The translations under genes and the position numbers were made by a program. From NCBI RefSeq assembly GCF_026229185.1, contig NZ_JAGGJA010000006.1, positions 186,001-250,000 of the forward strand: DNA of 64,000 bases, read 5' to 3'. Source of the DNA: Fodinibius salsisoli (GTDB lineage: Bacteria > Bacteroidota > Rhodothermia > Balneolales > Balneolaceae). The notes under the pieces are model-generated. The model did not search any database. It was not told the DNA's origin and saw only the letters and a list, made by a program, of their open reading frames with translations. Shown piece by piece: positions 30,941 to 37,104 of this stretch. Within the stretch, counting starts at the first letter, position 1. Each line of letters begins with the position of its first letter.

Positions 30941-30973
30941 AGTAGTCATTGCCCTCTTTTTTCGTGTATAACC
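30941..30973 (+). promoter_or_regulatory. Candidate ECF sigma-factor promoter of the sigma-FecR-receptor operon
   Basis: AGTAGTCATT (30941-30950), a 13-nt spacer, GTGTA (30964-30968), then NNACC. The same elements with the same spacing lie at 35369-35401. It is 30 bp before the sigma-factor ATG, where an autoregulated ECF promoter is expected. The roles as -35 and -10 boxes are inferred. Confidence 0.6.
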
Positions 30974-30998
30974 ATCTACAATAAGAACATAATTGTGT

Positions 30999-31586
30999 AT
31001 GGGTTCCCGGGAACAAGAACAAATTACGGTGTGGGCACGAAGGATAAAAGCGTCTGACGAAGGTGCTTTTTCTGAGCTATTTCACCATCTGTATGCGCGG
31101 TTGGTAAAATTTGCGTGGCGCTACACAAAGTCAAAGGCACTGGCTAAAGATATTGTTCAGGAGTCTTTTGTGAAGCTATGGAAAAAGCGACAAGCTATCG
31201 ATCCTGATCAGTCATTATTGGCGTATGTGTTCCAGATTGTACGAAACAGCGCATTGAATTATCTCCGGGATCATCCTACCGAAAGCATTGCACTGGATGA
31301 TCTGTCCCCGGGATCCCTGAGCTCAAGCGATCATATACCAGAAGTGATATCATCCGACGATGAGACCGGCAAACAGATGATCAAGCTGATTAATCAACTG
31401 CCCAATCGCCAGCGTGAAGCCATACGGTTAAGCCGGTTTGAAGGATTAGACCACGAAGAAATTGCTTATGTGATGGATATTTCTTCCCGAACAGTAAATA
31501 ATCATATTGTGAAAGCAATTAAAACGCTTAAAAAAGAATGGAGCCAGCATAAGCAGAATCAAAGTAGCAACATTTATTATGACTGA
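30999..31586 (+). CDS. RNA polymerase ECF-type sigma factor
   Basis: This 195-aa sigma-70 family factor shows region 2 (FHHLYARLVKFAWRYTKSKA through IVQESFVKLWKKR) and region 4 with a helix-turn-helix (LPNRQREAIRLSRFEGLDHE, then MDISSRTVNNHIVKAIKTLK). The ATG at 30999 was chosen over an upstream in-frame TTG at 30993. It overlaps the following FecR gene by 8 bp. Such factors are held by a FecR anti-sigma protein until a TonB-dependent receptor reports substrate binding. The target promoters are suggested by the shared motif upstream of this gene and of the first FAS1 gene. Confidence 0.96.
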   Translation: MGSREQEQITVWARRIKASDEGAFSELFHHLYARLVKFAWRYTKSKALAKDIVQESFVKLWKKRQAIDPDQSLLAYVFQIVRNSALNYLRDHPTESIALDDLSPGSLSSSDHIPEVISSDDETGKQMIKLINQLPNRQREAIRLSRFEGLDHEEIAYVMDISSRTVNNHIVKAIKTLKKEWSQHKQNQSSNIYYD

Positions 31587-32493
31587 CCCCCAAAAATACC
31601 TCCATCCTGATCAGCCGGACAAAAAAATAGATGCTCTTCTGAATGAGGCCGCACGTGTGGATAGGAAACACAGTGTAACGGTTTCCAATTCCGAAACAAC
31701 CGCTGCTTTTCAGCAAGTCAGTGAACGAACAGGCCTTGCTTCGAAACCATCCAAAACCAAGACGCCTCTGTGGAACTGGAAGTTTGCCGCAGCAGCGGTC
31801 ATACTGCTTGGGGCTATAGGCATCGGTTACCTTTCGATTCCTAATCATATAGCGGTGCCTCATGGAGAGACTAAAACCATTACGTTATCTGATCAGACCA
31901 CCATTACACTAAACAGCGGTTCCACTTTAAGCTATCCAAAATGGTTCAATATCTGGGAGCGGACGGTTGCACTCAATGGAGAAGCTTTTTTTGAAGTTAC
32001 CACTACAGGAATGCCCTTTCAAGTGGAAGCCGGACGAGGCCTGATTACAGTGATGGGTACTAAGTTCAATGTCCGTTCTTGGCCCGATGATAAAAATGCC
32101 ACCTCGGTTTTTCTAGAAGAAGGACGGGTTTCTTTCTCATCAGCGGATCGGGAATCAAAAGAGGTTGTACTTGAGCCCGGTCAGTTTAGTCAGCTTACTC
32201 CCAAGAGTGAACGTCCATCACCACCTACAGCCGCTGATCCTTCAAAAGCTACGGTCTGGATGCAACAGGGATTGGCTTTTGAAAATCAGCCTCTGTCAGA
32301 CATTTTTAATGAGTTGAGCCGAAGGTTTAATATCAAAATAAAAGCAGAGTCCGAAAGCTTACTCCAAGAAAAACTGACGCTTTACCTCTCAAAGGTTAAA
32401 AATGCCGAACAGACCCTGGGTGATATTTGTCGTGTCAAAGGACTAACTTATTCGAAGTCTGGCGATACCTTTGTGGTTTCTGAATCATTCTAA
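31579..32493 (+). CDS. FecR-family anti-sigma factor / transmembrane signal relay
   Basis: This 304-aa single-span protein has a short cytoplasmic N-terminus (about 1-75), a membrane helix (FAAAAVILLGAIGIGYLSI) and a periplasmic FecR domain (GETKTITLSDQTTITLNSGS and following). It ends in a DUF4974-like C-terminal domain (LSDIFNELSRRFNIKIK..., then VKGLTY). It should bind the ECF factor on the cytoplasmic side and the STN domain of the receptor in the periplasm. Translation is coupled to the sigma gene; the receptor gene follows after 9 bp. The domain order is that of Bacteroidota surface-signalling regulators. Confidence 0.96.
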   Translation: MTDPQKYLHPDQPDKKIDALLNEAARVDRKHSVTVSNSETTAAFQQVSERTGLASKPSKTKTPLWNWKFAAAAVILLGAIGIGYLSIPNHIAVPHGETKTITLSDQTTITLNSGSTLSYPKWFNIWERTVALNGEAFFEVTTTGMPFQVEAGRGLITVMGTKFNVRSWPDDKNATSVFLEEGRVSFSSADRESKEVVLEPGQFSQLTPKSERPSPPTAADPSKATVWMQQGLAFENQPLSDIFNELSRRFNIKIKAESESLLQEKLTLYLSKVKNAEQTLGDICRVKGLTYSKSGDTFVVSESF

Positions 32494-32502
32494 CCCTTTT
32501 TT

Positions 32503-35301
32503 ATGCGGACCGTAATTATATATTTTGGGGTAATCATTGCGCTTTCTCTTGGAATAGCCCTCCCTTTATCGGCGCAACAGACTGAGAATAATTCAAAATC
32601 CGAAACCCATACTTTTATCTACCGGGGTGAGCCTATTGCTTACGCGCTGCAGCAGCTTGTTCAGCAAACGGATCTCGACCTTATTTACGATCCGGCCATC
32701 CTTCCGGACCATGCAGTATTTGTAACAGCAAAACAGAAGTCCCCGGAAGACATCCTTCGGCTTATTCTTAAAGATAGCGGCCTGGACTTTATCCAGCTTT
32801 CTTCAGGCACCTATGTGCTAACCACAGCCCCGGGCGATCGCAATCTCAAAGGAAATTTGACCGGCAAAGTAACCGACAGACGCACAGGCGAGCCCCTGGT
32901 TGGCGCCAATGTGATGCTTGCAGACGCCAGCGGTGGAACAGCAACCAGCCCAACAGGTGTCTTTAAGATACCACAGCTTGAAAAAGGATATCACGAGGTC
33001 ACCATCAATTATGTGGGCTATAGACCGGTTAAAGATACGGTCTGGATTCCAGCCAACTCCACTACATCACTCAACTTTTCAATGACTGCTGAGCCGGTTC
33101 TAGTTGAGCCCATCGTGGTCAAGGGCATTCAAAAACGTATTCCGGCCTCACGCTCATTTACATCTGAGCTCTCGGCAACCCAAATTAGCCGTCGACAGTC
33201 ACTGGGTGCTGCCGATGCTCTCAAAAGTATGGATGCTATTTCAGGAATCGATTTTAGTCTTCCCCTCGCCGACTTCAGCATTCAGGGCGGCGGCAGCGGT
33301 GACCATCAACTCCGACTTGATGGGGTTCCTATTTACAATCCGGTGAGCATGGGACGCATGATTGGCGCCTTTAGCCCATGGTCGATTAAAAAAATTGAGA
33401 TTAATAAAGCAGGCTTTTCTGCTCCGGTCGGAAGCCAGCTGGCCGGCATCGTCAATATTGTACAGGATGTGAGCCATGCGCCCGGCAGCCAGTTTTTACT
33501 ACAGGCAAATTCCACCGATATCAATGGCCGTTTTGATCATCATCTTGATTTCGATGATGGCCCTTCCATCAATCTGATGCTTGCCGCTCGCACCAATATC
33601 TGGCAATTATATCAGGAACCAAACCTAAAGCAGATGTTTCAAAACTGGGATCGGCTTGACCCGCTGCTTACACTTCATCTTTTCCAGAGAGATTCCTCTA
33701 ATACTATTTTCAAAGCACGAGATCATTCCTACGACATCACCTATTACGATTTACATGCTGCTGCACAAATTGAGCATACCCCCTTTCATCAGACCCGTAT
33801 TTCCGCCTATCATGGAAAAAATAGACTCAAGACTAATTTATTCTCAAAGAATGTAGCTCTGACTACTCAGCCTACCGACCTTTACTACTCCATTGACGAC
33901 TACGACTGGAGCAATAGTATGGTTAAAGTTGAACATCAATGGTTAGTCAACGCCCGCCTCGATGCTAACCTAAGTGGATATATTACAAGCCACTCTTTCG
34001 ATCACCATTACTTTCTTACCAATAATCAGCGGGCGAACATTTTTCCCTTCACCTATACTTCCACCGCTCGGCAAGAGCTACAGGAATTTGCGGCACAAGC
34101 CATGGAAACCGGGGACCGTAATGCTATGGTCCAGTCATCAGCAAAAATGAGCCTTAACTACAGTGCCACCAAAGACTACACGCTCAGCGGCGGTCTTAGT
34201 GTCACTCATCTTGACTACCGATTTAGCCTTTCTGATCAGTATTACAACCAGGCCCGTTCAGATGCCGACAGTTTTCTGATTGCGGGGTATATTCAAAATG
34301 ATTTCCTGCTGAGCCCAAAAACCAGCCTCTCGGCGGGCAGCCGCCTGACCTTTATTCCCAGCCGTGATTTGGTTTTTGCCGAACCCCGGCTCTCATTCAA
34401 ATACGAAGAGCCCAACACCTCAATAGGATATCTCTCCGCTAAATTATCGGGCGGTATTTACCGCCAATTTATTAACCAGTTCGATGTGTCCAATGTTGGT
34501 CCTTCTTCACTGGTGCCCTCCCTTCGGTTCTGGGTACCGGTAGACTATACTACCGATGTGCCCAAGGCGTATCACCTTGCCCTTGATGGACTTTGGGAGC
34601 CCTCCCAAAACTGGAAGTTTCAAATTGAATCCTATTACAAGTGGATTCCTTCTCGCCTTACCCTCAATTACCATAAACTTTCTGCCTTTCCTATGCTCAA
34701 CAGGACATCCGCATTTTCGAAACAGCAGGAGTTTATAAACACTACCCGGGGATATGCTTATGGGGCGGGCTTATCGATCCAGCGGACTATTCCTTCACTA
34801 AATATGGAGCTTAAAGGAAGTTATCAATCCAGTATCGCCCGTCAAATATATCCCTCCCGCTTTGGAAAAGGCTATCAGCCTCTGCCCTCCAGCCAACCGC
34901 ACCAGCTTGATGCTTCAGTTAACTGGAAAGTTGTTACCAATTTAACATTCCTATTGCAGTGGCAGGGAGTCTGGGGGCGCAGTTGGGGCTTTCGGAAAGC
35001 ATATTACGATTATTTATCCATTCGTGAAGCACGTACCTACGACGCATACTCCTTCAATGATCCCGGTAATGATACCCTCCCCCGTTATTCCCAACTCAAT
35101 ACAAGCCTTAGTTATCGATTTAGTATTGGAGCATCAAACCTCCAACTGCGAATGGACGTTTTTAACTTGCTCGACAACCAAAACGTCATCAATCGCTGGC
35201 TCTCGCCTTATAAAGATGAAACCGGAGATATCTCATATGAACTGAGAGAACGAACAATGCCGGGCCTGCGGCCCTCACTAAGTATCAAGCTGAGTTATTA
35301 A
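32503..35301 (+). CDS. TonB-dependent receptor with STN signalling domain
   Basis: This 932-aa outer-membrane receptor has a signal peptide (ending near LSAQQ), then an STN secretin/TonB domain (about 45-110, GEPIAYALQQLVQQTDLDL). After that come a carboxypeptidase-regulatory-like domain (GNLTGKVTDRRTGEPLVGAN), a plug with DALKSMDAISGID and LRLDGVPIYNP, and a 22-strand-type barrel ending in the aromatic LSIKLSY. The STN domain is the part that contacts FecR. Its substrate is unknown: siderophore or oligosaccharide are both possible. No SusD-like lipoprotein follows; instead two FAS1 lipoproteins are found. Confidence 0.95.
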   Translation: MRTVIIYFGVIIALSLGIALPLSAQQTENNSKSETHTFIYRGEPIAYALQQLVQQTDLDLIYDPAILPDHAVFVTAKQKSPEDILRLILKDSGLDFIQLSSGTYVLTTAPGDRNLKGNLTGKVTDRRTGEPLVGANVMLADASGGTATSPTGVFKIPQLEKGYHEVTINYVGYRPVKDTVWIPANSTTSLNFSMTAEPVLVEPIVVKGIQKRIPASRSFTSELSATQISRRQSLGAADALKSMDAISGIDFSLPLADFSIQGGGSGDHQLRLDGVPIYNPVSMGRMIGAFSPWSIKKIEINKAGFSAPVGSQLAGIVNIVQDVSHAPGSQFLLQANSTDINGRFDHHLDFDDGPSINLMLAARTNIWQLYQEPNLKQMFQNWDRLDPLLTLHLFQRDSSNTIFKARDHSYDITYYDLHAAAQIEHTPFHQTRISAYHGKNRLKTNLFSKNVALTTQPTDLYYSIDDYDWSNSMVKVEHQWLVNARLDANLSGYITSHSFDHHYFLTNNQRANIFPFTYTSTARQELQEFAAQAMETGDRNAMVQSSAKMSLNYSATKDYTLSGGLSVTHLDYRFSLSDQYYNQARSDADSFLIAGYIQNDFLLSPKTSLSAGSRLTFIPSRDLVFAEPRLSFKYEEPNTSIGYLSAKLSGGIYRQFINQFDVSNVGPSSLVPSLRFWVPVDYTTDVPKAYHLALDGLWEPSQNWKFQIESYYKWIPSRLTLNYHKLSAFPMLNRTSAFSKQQEFINTTRGYAYGAGLSIQRTIPSLNMELKGSYQSSIARQIYPSRFGKGYQPLPSSQPHQLDASVNWKVVTNLTFLLQWQGVWGRSWGFRKAYYDYLSIREARTYDAYSFNDPGNDTLPRYSQLNTSLSYRFSIGASNLQLRMDVFNLLDNQNVINRWLSPYKDETGDISYELRERTMPGLRPSLSIKLSY

Positions 35302-35368
35302 ATAGTGTATGAAAAAATAAGCAGTAGCTTTGTCCCTCTTCAATCTTTTTTAAAAAATCTGATTTAAA

Positions 35369-35401
35369 AGTAGTCATTCCTTCCCTGAGCTGTGTAATAC
35401 C
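35369..35401 (+). promoter_or_regulatory. Candidate ECF promoter of the first FAS1 gene
   Basis: AGTAGTCATT (35369-35378), 13 nt, GTGTA (35392-35396), NNACC, identical in bases and spacing to the motif before the sigma gene. The ATG of the FAS1 gene lies 42 bp after GTGTA. Confidence 0.6.
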
Positions 35402-35438: not shown

Positions 35439-35942
35439 ATGCTAAACGTTATACCAAAATCATTGAAATTGTGCTTAGCACTGGTATTAGGTGTCACTTT
35501 ATTCACTGCCTGTGATGACGATAATGGATCCGGGCCAGACAATGATATGAATATATCCGAGACCTTGGAGCTTGAAGATAATCTCTCTTCAGCCTACGGT
35601 CTCATTGATGACCAAGGATTAGCCGATACCCTCTCTTCAGACGGCCCCATAACGGTATTCATCCCAACAGACACCGCATTGGATGAGGAAGACCTGGGCG
35701 ATATGAGCGATGAAGAGATCCAAACGCTGCTCAAATATCATATTGTTTGGGAAAATCTAACCTTTGATAACCTGAAGGATACCGAATCCGTAGAATCTTT
35801 CAACGGCGATTCTTTATACTTCAGTGCCGACAGCGATACCGTAACTATTAACGAAGATCAGACCATTATTACAGATGAGGGTATTGAAGCAACCAATGGT
35901 ATAATTTTCAAAGTTGATACTGTGTTAACGGCTCCCGAATAA
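35439..35942 (+). CDS. Single fasciclin (FAS1) domain lipoprotein
   Basis: This 167-aa protein has a lipoprotein signal (LALVLGVTLFTAC, cysteine near residue 25) followed by an acidic DDDNGSGPDND linker. One FAS1 domain follows, with the family landmarks GPITVFIPTDTAL (first conserved block), LKYHIV and the final GIEATNGIIFKVDTVL (second block). FAS1 proteins act in adhesion or ligand binding at cell surfaces. The gene follows the TonB receptor by 137 bp, carries its own ECF-type promoter candidate, and ends at a strong terminator. Confidence 0.95.
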   Translation: MLNVIPKSLKLCLALVLGVTLFTACDDDNGSGPDNDMNISETLELEDNLSSAYGLIDDQGLADTLSSDGPITVFIPTDTALDEEDLGDMSDEEIQTLLKYHIVWENLTFDNLKDTESVESFNGDSLYFSADSDTVTINEDQTIITDEGIEATNGIIFKVDTVLTAPE

Positions 35943-35965
35943 ACATCGGGTTCCCCTCATAATAA

Positions 35966-36008
35966 TAGAGTCCGCCTATCCCTGAATGGGGCGGACTCTT
36001 TTTTTGTT
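35966..36008 (+). terminator. Terminator of the first FAS1 gene
   Basis: AGAGTCCGCC (35968-35977) pairs perfectly with GGCGGACTCT (35991-36000), followed by seven T residues. Confidence 0.95.
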
Positions 36009-36192: not shown

Positions 36193-37104
36193 ATGCAATC
36201 TCTTATTTCCAAATATTCATTCCTCCCCCTACTCCTACTGTTTTGCCCTTTTGTGTTAACCTCTTGCCTGGATAGCAGTACTAACAGTGGTCAGCAGCGG
36301 CAAAACATCCTTGAAACCGCCAAAGAGGTTACGCAGGGACAAGGTGGTGACCAAGTATTAACGACCTTTGTTGGTTTACTGGAAGATGCCGACCTCGATT
36401 CTACGGTCGCCAACAATGGCCCCCTAACGGTTATTGCCCCTACCAATGATGCCTTTTCCAATTTGCCTGAAGGGCTTCTTGACTCATTGGAAACCCCTGA
36501 TTTAGTCAATATCTTGCGGTACCATGTGGTCGAAGAAATTGTCAATTACACCCAAATTAGTGGCGAAGAAGAGATTCAAAGCATGCTGGGAGAAAACCTG
36601 TTCTTTGAAAGGGTCCAAGGAGCTACTCAAGACAGTTTATTTATTAATAACAGCTACTTTCTTGGTGGCCTCCAAGCGACGAACGGACTCATTTTCGTAG
36701 TTGACGAGGTGCTCTTCCCCGATACCTATCTCAACGCTGCAGGATTGATTGCCAAGCGCCCCCAGCTCAATTCCCTGGAAAGTGCCATTGAAGGAGCTAA
36801 CCTGACAACTACGCTTAGCGATACTACTGCGGCCTATACCGTCTTTGCTCCCACTAATGAAGCTCTTGAAAATACGGACCTGTCTGGTGATGAAATCCAA
36901 TATCATGTACTCCCTGAAAAAGTCTTTTCTAATGGACTAAGTTCCGGAACGTATACAACCTTGAGCGGTGAGGATATTACCGTAGAAGTGAGTGGAGGTA
37001 CCATTACTCTTAACGGTGAAGCAACTATTACCGAAGCAAATATCGAAGGTACCAATGGCGTGGTTCACATTATTGATATGGCCCTCTCCCCTCCTTCTGA
37101 GTAA
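36193..37104 (+). CDS. Two-domain fasciclin (FAS1) lipoprotein
   Basis: This 303-aa protein has a lipoprotein signal (LFCPFVLTSCLDS) and two FAS1 repeats. The first covers about 40-178 (GPLTVIAPTNDAFSNLP, LRYHVVEE, GLQATNGLIFVVDEVL); the second covers about 190-300 (YTVFAPTNEALEN, IQYHVLPE, GTNGVVHIIDMAL). It is separated from the single-domain FAS1 gene by a terminator, so it has its own promoter, which does not contain the AGTAGTCATT motif. A surface-adhesive or ligand-binding role beside the TonB receptor is likely by context but unproven. Confidence 0.95.
   Translation: MQSLISKYSFLPLLLLFCPFVLTSCLDSSTNSGQQRQNILETAKEVTQGQGGDQVLTTFVGLLEDADLDSTVANNGPLTVIAPTNDAFSNLPEGLLDSLETPDLVNILRYHVVEEIVNYTQISGEEEIQSMLGENLFFERVQGATQDSLFINNSYFLGGLQATNGLIFVVDEVLFPDTYLNAAGLIAKRPQLNSLESAIEGANLTTTLSDTTAAYTVFAPTNEALENTDLSGDEIQYHVLPEKVFSNGLSSGTYTTLSGEDITVEVSGGTITLNGEATITEANIEGTNGVVHIIDMALSPPSE

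Follow-up and report, generated by a model that had tools for sequence, protein, structure and literature searches.

An ECF sigma operon of Fodinibius salsisoli and an adjacent FAS1 gene share a promoter-like motif whose variants follow a sigma4 helix residue in related operons

Sigma-FecR-receptor systems and the F. salsisoli operon

The closest described systems are FecI-FecR-FecA of Escherichia coli and the ECF sigma/FecR/SusC-type systems of the Bacteroidota (TIGR02985). The first has the gene order ECF sigma factor, FecR-type regulator, and TonB-dependent receptor with an N-terminal signalling domain. Its fecIR genes depend on sigma-70 for transcription and are under Fur repression (PMC9249621); according to a review, FecI-like sigmas form an exception to autoregulation (PMC8103513).

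The window analyzed here, a 64,000-nt stretch of the Fodinibius salsisoli genome, contains genes in the same order on the forward strand. The ECF sigma (30999..31586) scores above the TIGR02985 cut-off, has the Pfam domains Sigma70_r2 and Sigma70_r4_2 and thus only sigma2 and sigma4, as defines the ECF (group IV) sigmas. Of 59 related genomes, 42 encode relatives of it (E<=1e-25). Its reading frame was listed from TTG 30993, but ATG 30999 is preferred, since its orthologues start at the corresponding ATG. The FecR-type anti-sigma or sigma regulator beside it (31579..32493; Pfam FecR, FecR_C) is followed by a TonB-dependent receptor (32503..35301) with an N-terminal STN, a carboxypeptidase-regulatory-like domain, and a plug. 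The plug is above its cut-off; the STN is counted as present at E 2.7e-6 and 27.5 bits, 0.9 bit below the curated cut-off of 28.4 bits. Downstream is a gene for a single-domain FAS1 (fasciclin) lipoprotein (35439..35942; Pfam Fasciclin, E 2.6e-25), with a lipobox-like signal sequence recognized by eye; it is the predicted target discussed below. An intrinsic terminator, a hairpin followed by a T run (35965..36008, forward strand; -21 kcal/mol, z -4.5), lies immediately 3′ of it. A second FAS1 gene (36193-37104), with two domains, is directly downstream; it lacks the motif described below and has the strong terminator ahead of it, so it is probably under separate control and was rejected as a regulon member.

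Unlike its E. coli counterpart, the window operon carries a predicted promoter for its own sigma, and the predicted output of the system includes a fasciclin lipoprotein. Since that promoter is conserved before the sigma gene, the operon appears to depart from the lack of autoregulation in Fec; this lowers the case that it is a Fec system, but leaves intact the case that it works like one. With FecI-like sigmas listed as exceptions to autoregulation (PMC8103513), the window system is best described as a variant. It shares its sigma subfamily and FecR_C domain architecture with the Bacteroidota systems; unlike in these, however, no SusD-like partner was seen adjoining the receptor, whose match to SusC/RagA is weak (37 bits, against a cut-off of 368 bits). 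The operons of the window and of genomes G013, G004, G021, and G017 all follow a Sua5 gene and, on contigs that extend far enough, are themselves followed by an M42 peptidase gene; by this common neighborhood they are positional orthologues.

Two copies of a promoter-like motif and their distribution

The motif AGTAGTCATT-N13-GTGTA-NN-ACC occurs at 30941-30973 and 35369-35401, with unlike spacers. The trailing ACC is not conserved among other copies and was dropped, leaving a core of the -35/-10 type, TAGTCAT-N14-GTGTA, at 30943..30968 and 35371..35396 (both forward strand). The first core lies before the sigma operon, its GTGTA 30 bp from the sigma ATG (30999); the second begins 70 bp past the receptor stop codon, its GTGTA 42 bp from the FAS1 ATG (35439). 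The preliminary description had reported these two copies, at these positions, with fixed spacing, unlike spacers, and no third copy in the window, 30-45 bp upstream of start codons, and all of this was reproduced. Only the two are found in the window at zero mismatches, and the 4.85 Mb genome contains no other perfect copy of the 10+5 motif. At up to three mismatches there are five window matches where 1.28 are expected, which puts the three imperfect ones, with two or three mismatches each, near chance level. Extended to the genome, the three-mismatch scan was rejected as a basis for a regulon: its matches are mostly chance, and the reversed control outnumbers the real pattern.

A relaxed pattern (TAGTYAT, a gap of 13-15 nt, GTGTA) has 16 matches in the genome, compared with nine for its reversed control. 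All 16 have a gap of 14 (binomial p about 2e-8 against an even split over the allowed gaps), and all but one, 15 in total, are intergenic. These 15 are found ahead of two sigma operons or of genes whose products are secreted proteins, lipoproteins, or outer-membrane proteins. The motif is therefore not spread over unrelated sites, which the preliminary description had named as grounds for refuting its proposal. The wider TAGTYAT family marks not only the window operon but a second, paralogous sigma-FecR-TonB receptor operon on contig C41 (locus L136, C41:172000-184000), with TAGTTAT before its sigma gene. The other 13 intergenic copies are up to 192 bp ahead of genes that include FAS1, serpin, LVIVD-repeat, DUF6174 lipoprotein, and beta-barrel protein genes; two of them are directly 3′ of the C41 receptor, where two TAGTTAT sites precede an outer-membrane-like gene (LINLKTAPVATGDQF...). 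A serpin-like lipoprotein gene at C43:180582 (L046) is a predicted target with a TAGTTAT site, in keeping with the residue type of a resident sigma.

When the two middle bases of the -35 element are left free, the genome has 15 matches with TT, three with TC, and six with all other pairs together. TAGTCAY-N14-GTGTW finds just one site besides the window pair, within a reading frame. The TAGTCAT match at C43:140668, inside a signal-peptide reading frame, was judged to be chance and excluded from the regulon. The TIGR02985 model has 39 genome matches at E<=1e-8, the weakest of which may be something other than ECF sigmas of this type; among the 30 sigma loci read, only the window and C41 sigmas have the motif upstream.

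Once loci obtained by scanning 84,980 species genomes were included, 83 distinct sigmas were examined with the two middle -35 bases left free. A site precedes the sigma gene in 66, from Balneolota, Rhodothermota, and Gemmatimonadota, with a gap of 14 in all but one; none was found by this pattern for the other 17. The first window element is thus one of a set kept upstream of orthologous sigma genes throughout the order and in other phyla, mostly shortly 5′ of the sigma start and including the variants TAGGTAY and TGGTCAY. Motif abundance is also tied to the sigma clade: genomes with a TAGTY-type sigma have a mean of 3.2 further copies, compared with 0.33 in those without (p about 1e-5), whereas the reversed control hardly differs (2.2 and 1.9).

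Very probably, then, both window copies are -35/-10 elements of the sigma encoded at 30999-31586, which would drive its own operon and the FAS1 gene from them. The preliminary description had proposed just this for the sigma-FecR-receptor operon and the FAS1 lipoprotein, and both the genome scan and the conservation in orthologues argue in its favor.

A sigma4 residue and the -35 bases

The sigma4 recognition helix enters the -35 major groove. In the sigmas considered here this helix has the form S-x-X-T-V-N-N-H, where X is the residue that was scored; in the window sigma (SSRTVNNH) it is Arg164 (codon 31488..31490, forward strand). X aligns with Gly168 of E. coli sigma-E (numbering obtained by counting), where the helix begins. 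It matches the middle -35 dinucleotide in all 66 cases: Arg with TC (43/43), Lys with GT (15/15), and Asn, Ser, or Trp with TT (8/8). No other alignment column explains the dinucleotide fully, the next best reaching 85% leave-one-out accuracy. The 66 cases are related, so that the independent events amount to about five class changes, some on weakly supported branches. Even so, a tree from which the helix stretch was left out requires five or more changes of promoter class, and the match is therefore not a single inherited event; the Asn/TT (L094) and Trp/TT (L176) sigmas, for example, nest in a group that also holds Arg/TC. A weaker second rule is suggested by the helix position two before Arg164, where Ser occurs mostly with TAG, and Ala, Arg, or Gln with TGG (the second -35 base).

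The code of Todor et al. 2020 for ECF promoter specificity reportedly predicts -10 and -35 bases from sigma2 and sigma4 residues, using autoregulated sigmas. It resembles the present rule in that residues predict bases; the comparison rests in part on a review (PMC8103513). The residue/dinucleotide rule for this Balneolota-centered clade was found here.

One sigma residue thus appears to set which promoter version is read, TAGTCAT or TAGTTAT. An unlikely alternative is that the sites are real ECF promoters read by both the window and C41 sigmas, or mainly by the latter, as a shared TAGTYAT-N14-GTGTA regulon. The two sigmas are about 47% identical, their motifs are one base apart, and both operons have the layout motif-sigma-FecR-receptor-motif-surface gene, all of which could be expected of a shared regulon. 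C occurs with Arg, however, and T with Asn, Ser, or Trp, in all 51 sigma promoters of these two classes and nearly always at the second sites considered below. Genomes with a single type of sigma split the same way at their other sites, with 11 C and 6 T where only Arg is present and 2 C and 18 T where only Asn or Ser is (p 0.0013). If each sigma reads its own version, as we prefer, the Asn-type C41 sigma would take TAGTTAT, and the two regulons appear to be kept apart by a single base, C or T, which leaves the window sigma just its two window sites. By the Arg164/TC rule, it most likely drives its own operon and the FAS1 gene.

Targets, mechanism, and significance

Among the 53 operons whose receptor is complete, 30 have a second copy of the motif after the receptor gene. 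The residue rule was read from sigma promoters, so agreement at these second sites is a separate check; their -35 class agrees with the sigma residue at 29 of 31, the exceptions being G004 and L190. Where an Arg-type sigma is accompanied by a complete receptor (32 operons), a FAS1 gene (by Pfam or profile) comes next in 19, Gemmatimonadota included, and the motif is ahead of 17 of these genes. The comparison with related genomes proposed in the preliminary description thus supports both of its parts: the motif is kept before orthologous sigma genes, and the second copy, where Arg-type operons retain it, is in most cases before FAS1. The window follows the Arg pattern throughout: residue 164 is Arg, both sites read TAGTCAT, and the FAS1 gene that comes next has a strong terminator immediately 3′ of it. 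In 20 operons with Lys-, Asn-, or Ser-type sigmas no FAS1 gene was detected 3′ of the receptor, and their second sites precede other surface proteins.

Several individual loci deserve mention. In Fodinibius halophilus (G004), with an Arg-type sigma, the operon promoter has a gap of 15; TAGTTAC-N14-GTGTA persists just 3′ of the receptor (L138) with no FAS1 gene following, possibly as a relic of gene loss. That genome also has three TAGTTAT sites, although no Asn-type sigma was found there. In G022, a serpin-like lipoprotein gene (L146) with TAGGTAT, after a Lys-type operon, is a predicted target that fits the resident sigma type. Short FAS1 genes are common near Lys-type operons, as at L162, L165, L168, L171, L173, L174, L178, L180, L187, L199, and L144. 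FAS1 genes near Lys-type sigmas are mostly upstream and divergent, without the motif, and were rejected as targets; many have a GGAAC-type leader (by eye), which suggests control by a different ECF sigma.

Together with the FecR-type regulator and the STN-bearing TonB-dependent receptor, the sigma would constitute a cell-surface signalling system. An outside ligand would engage the receptor, whose STN domain would relay the signal to FecR, whereupon the sigma would become active. The active sigma would transcribe its own sigma-FecR-receptor operon, which amounts to positive feedback; the second copy would let it transcribe the neighboring gene for the FAS1 surface lipoprotein as well. Arg164, located where the recognition helix begins, would select the C of TAGTCAT, while the C41 paralog, with Asn at this position, would read TAGTTAT at about 13 other sites. 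The promoter part of this scheme is well supported by the motif, its conservation and linkage, and the residue-base covariation, from which we infer sigma binding. The signalling part, including its direction and the ligand, is most likely as outlined, judging from domain content and known Fec systems (PMC9249621).

The sites might instead be targets of a different regulator, for example a repressor or a Fur-like protein, and not sigma recognition elements, given that operons of enteric FecI-type sigmas are often under regulators other than themselves (PMC9249621, PMC8103513). This seems highly improbable, as the two half-sites are unlike and keep one fixed spacing, the motif covaries with one sigma4 helix residue, and its occurrence is tied to the presence of the sigma clade. 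That the second copy is a functionless leftover from local duplication of the operon leader is scarcely credible: the copies do lie in one locus, 4.4 kb apart, but their spacers and flanks are unlike, and the second is retained in distant lineages with a -35 class that tracks the sigma.

Literature searches found no paper joining such a sigma system with fasciclin. The operons probably represent a previously undescribed family of self-activating sigma-FecR-TonB receptor cassettes for surface signalling that extends over Balneolota, Rhodothermota, and Gemmatimonadota. In this family, Arg-type members would usually have fasciclin as their output, paralogs sharing a cell would be insulated by one helix residue and one or two -35 bases, and a sigma and its promoters would change together in the course of evolution. 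For a little-studied phylum, this provides a concrete, testable regulon for one sigma, with a FecI-like layout and apparent autoregulation, which a review lists as an exception (PMC8103513). Bacterial fasciclin proteins are poorly understood, and this would connect them with surface signalling. The operons also offer a clean natural case (66/66) of the insulation of duplicated sigmas, in which a single residue is paired with one or two bases and the targets follow suit.
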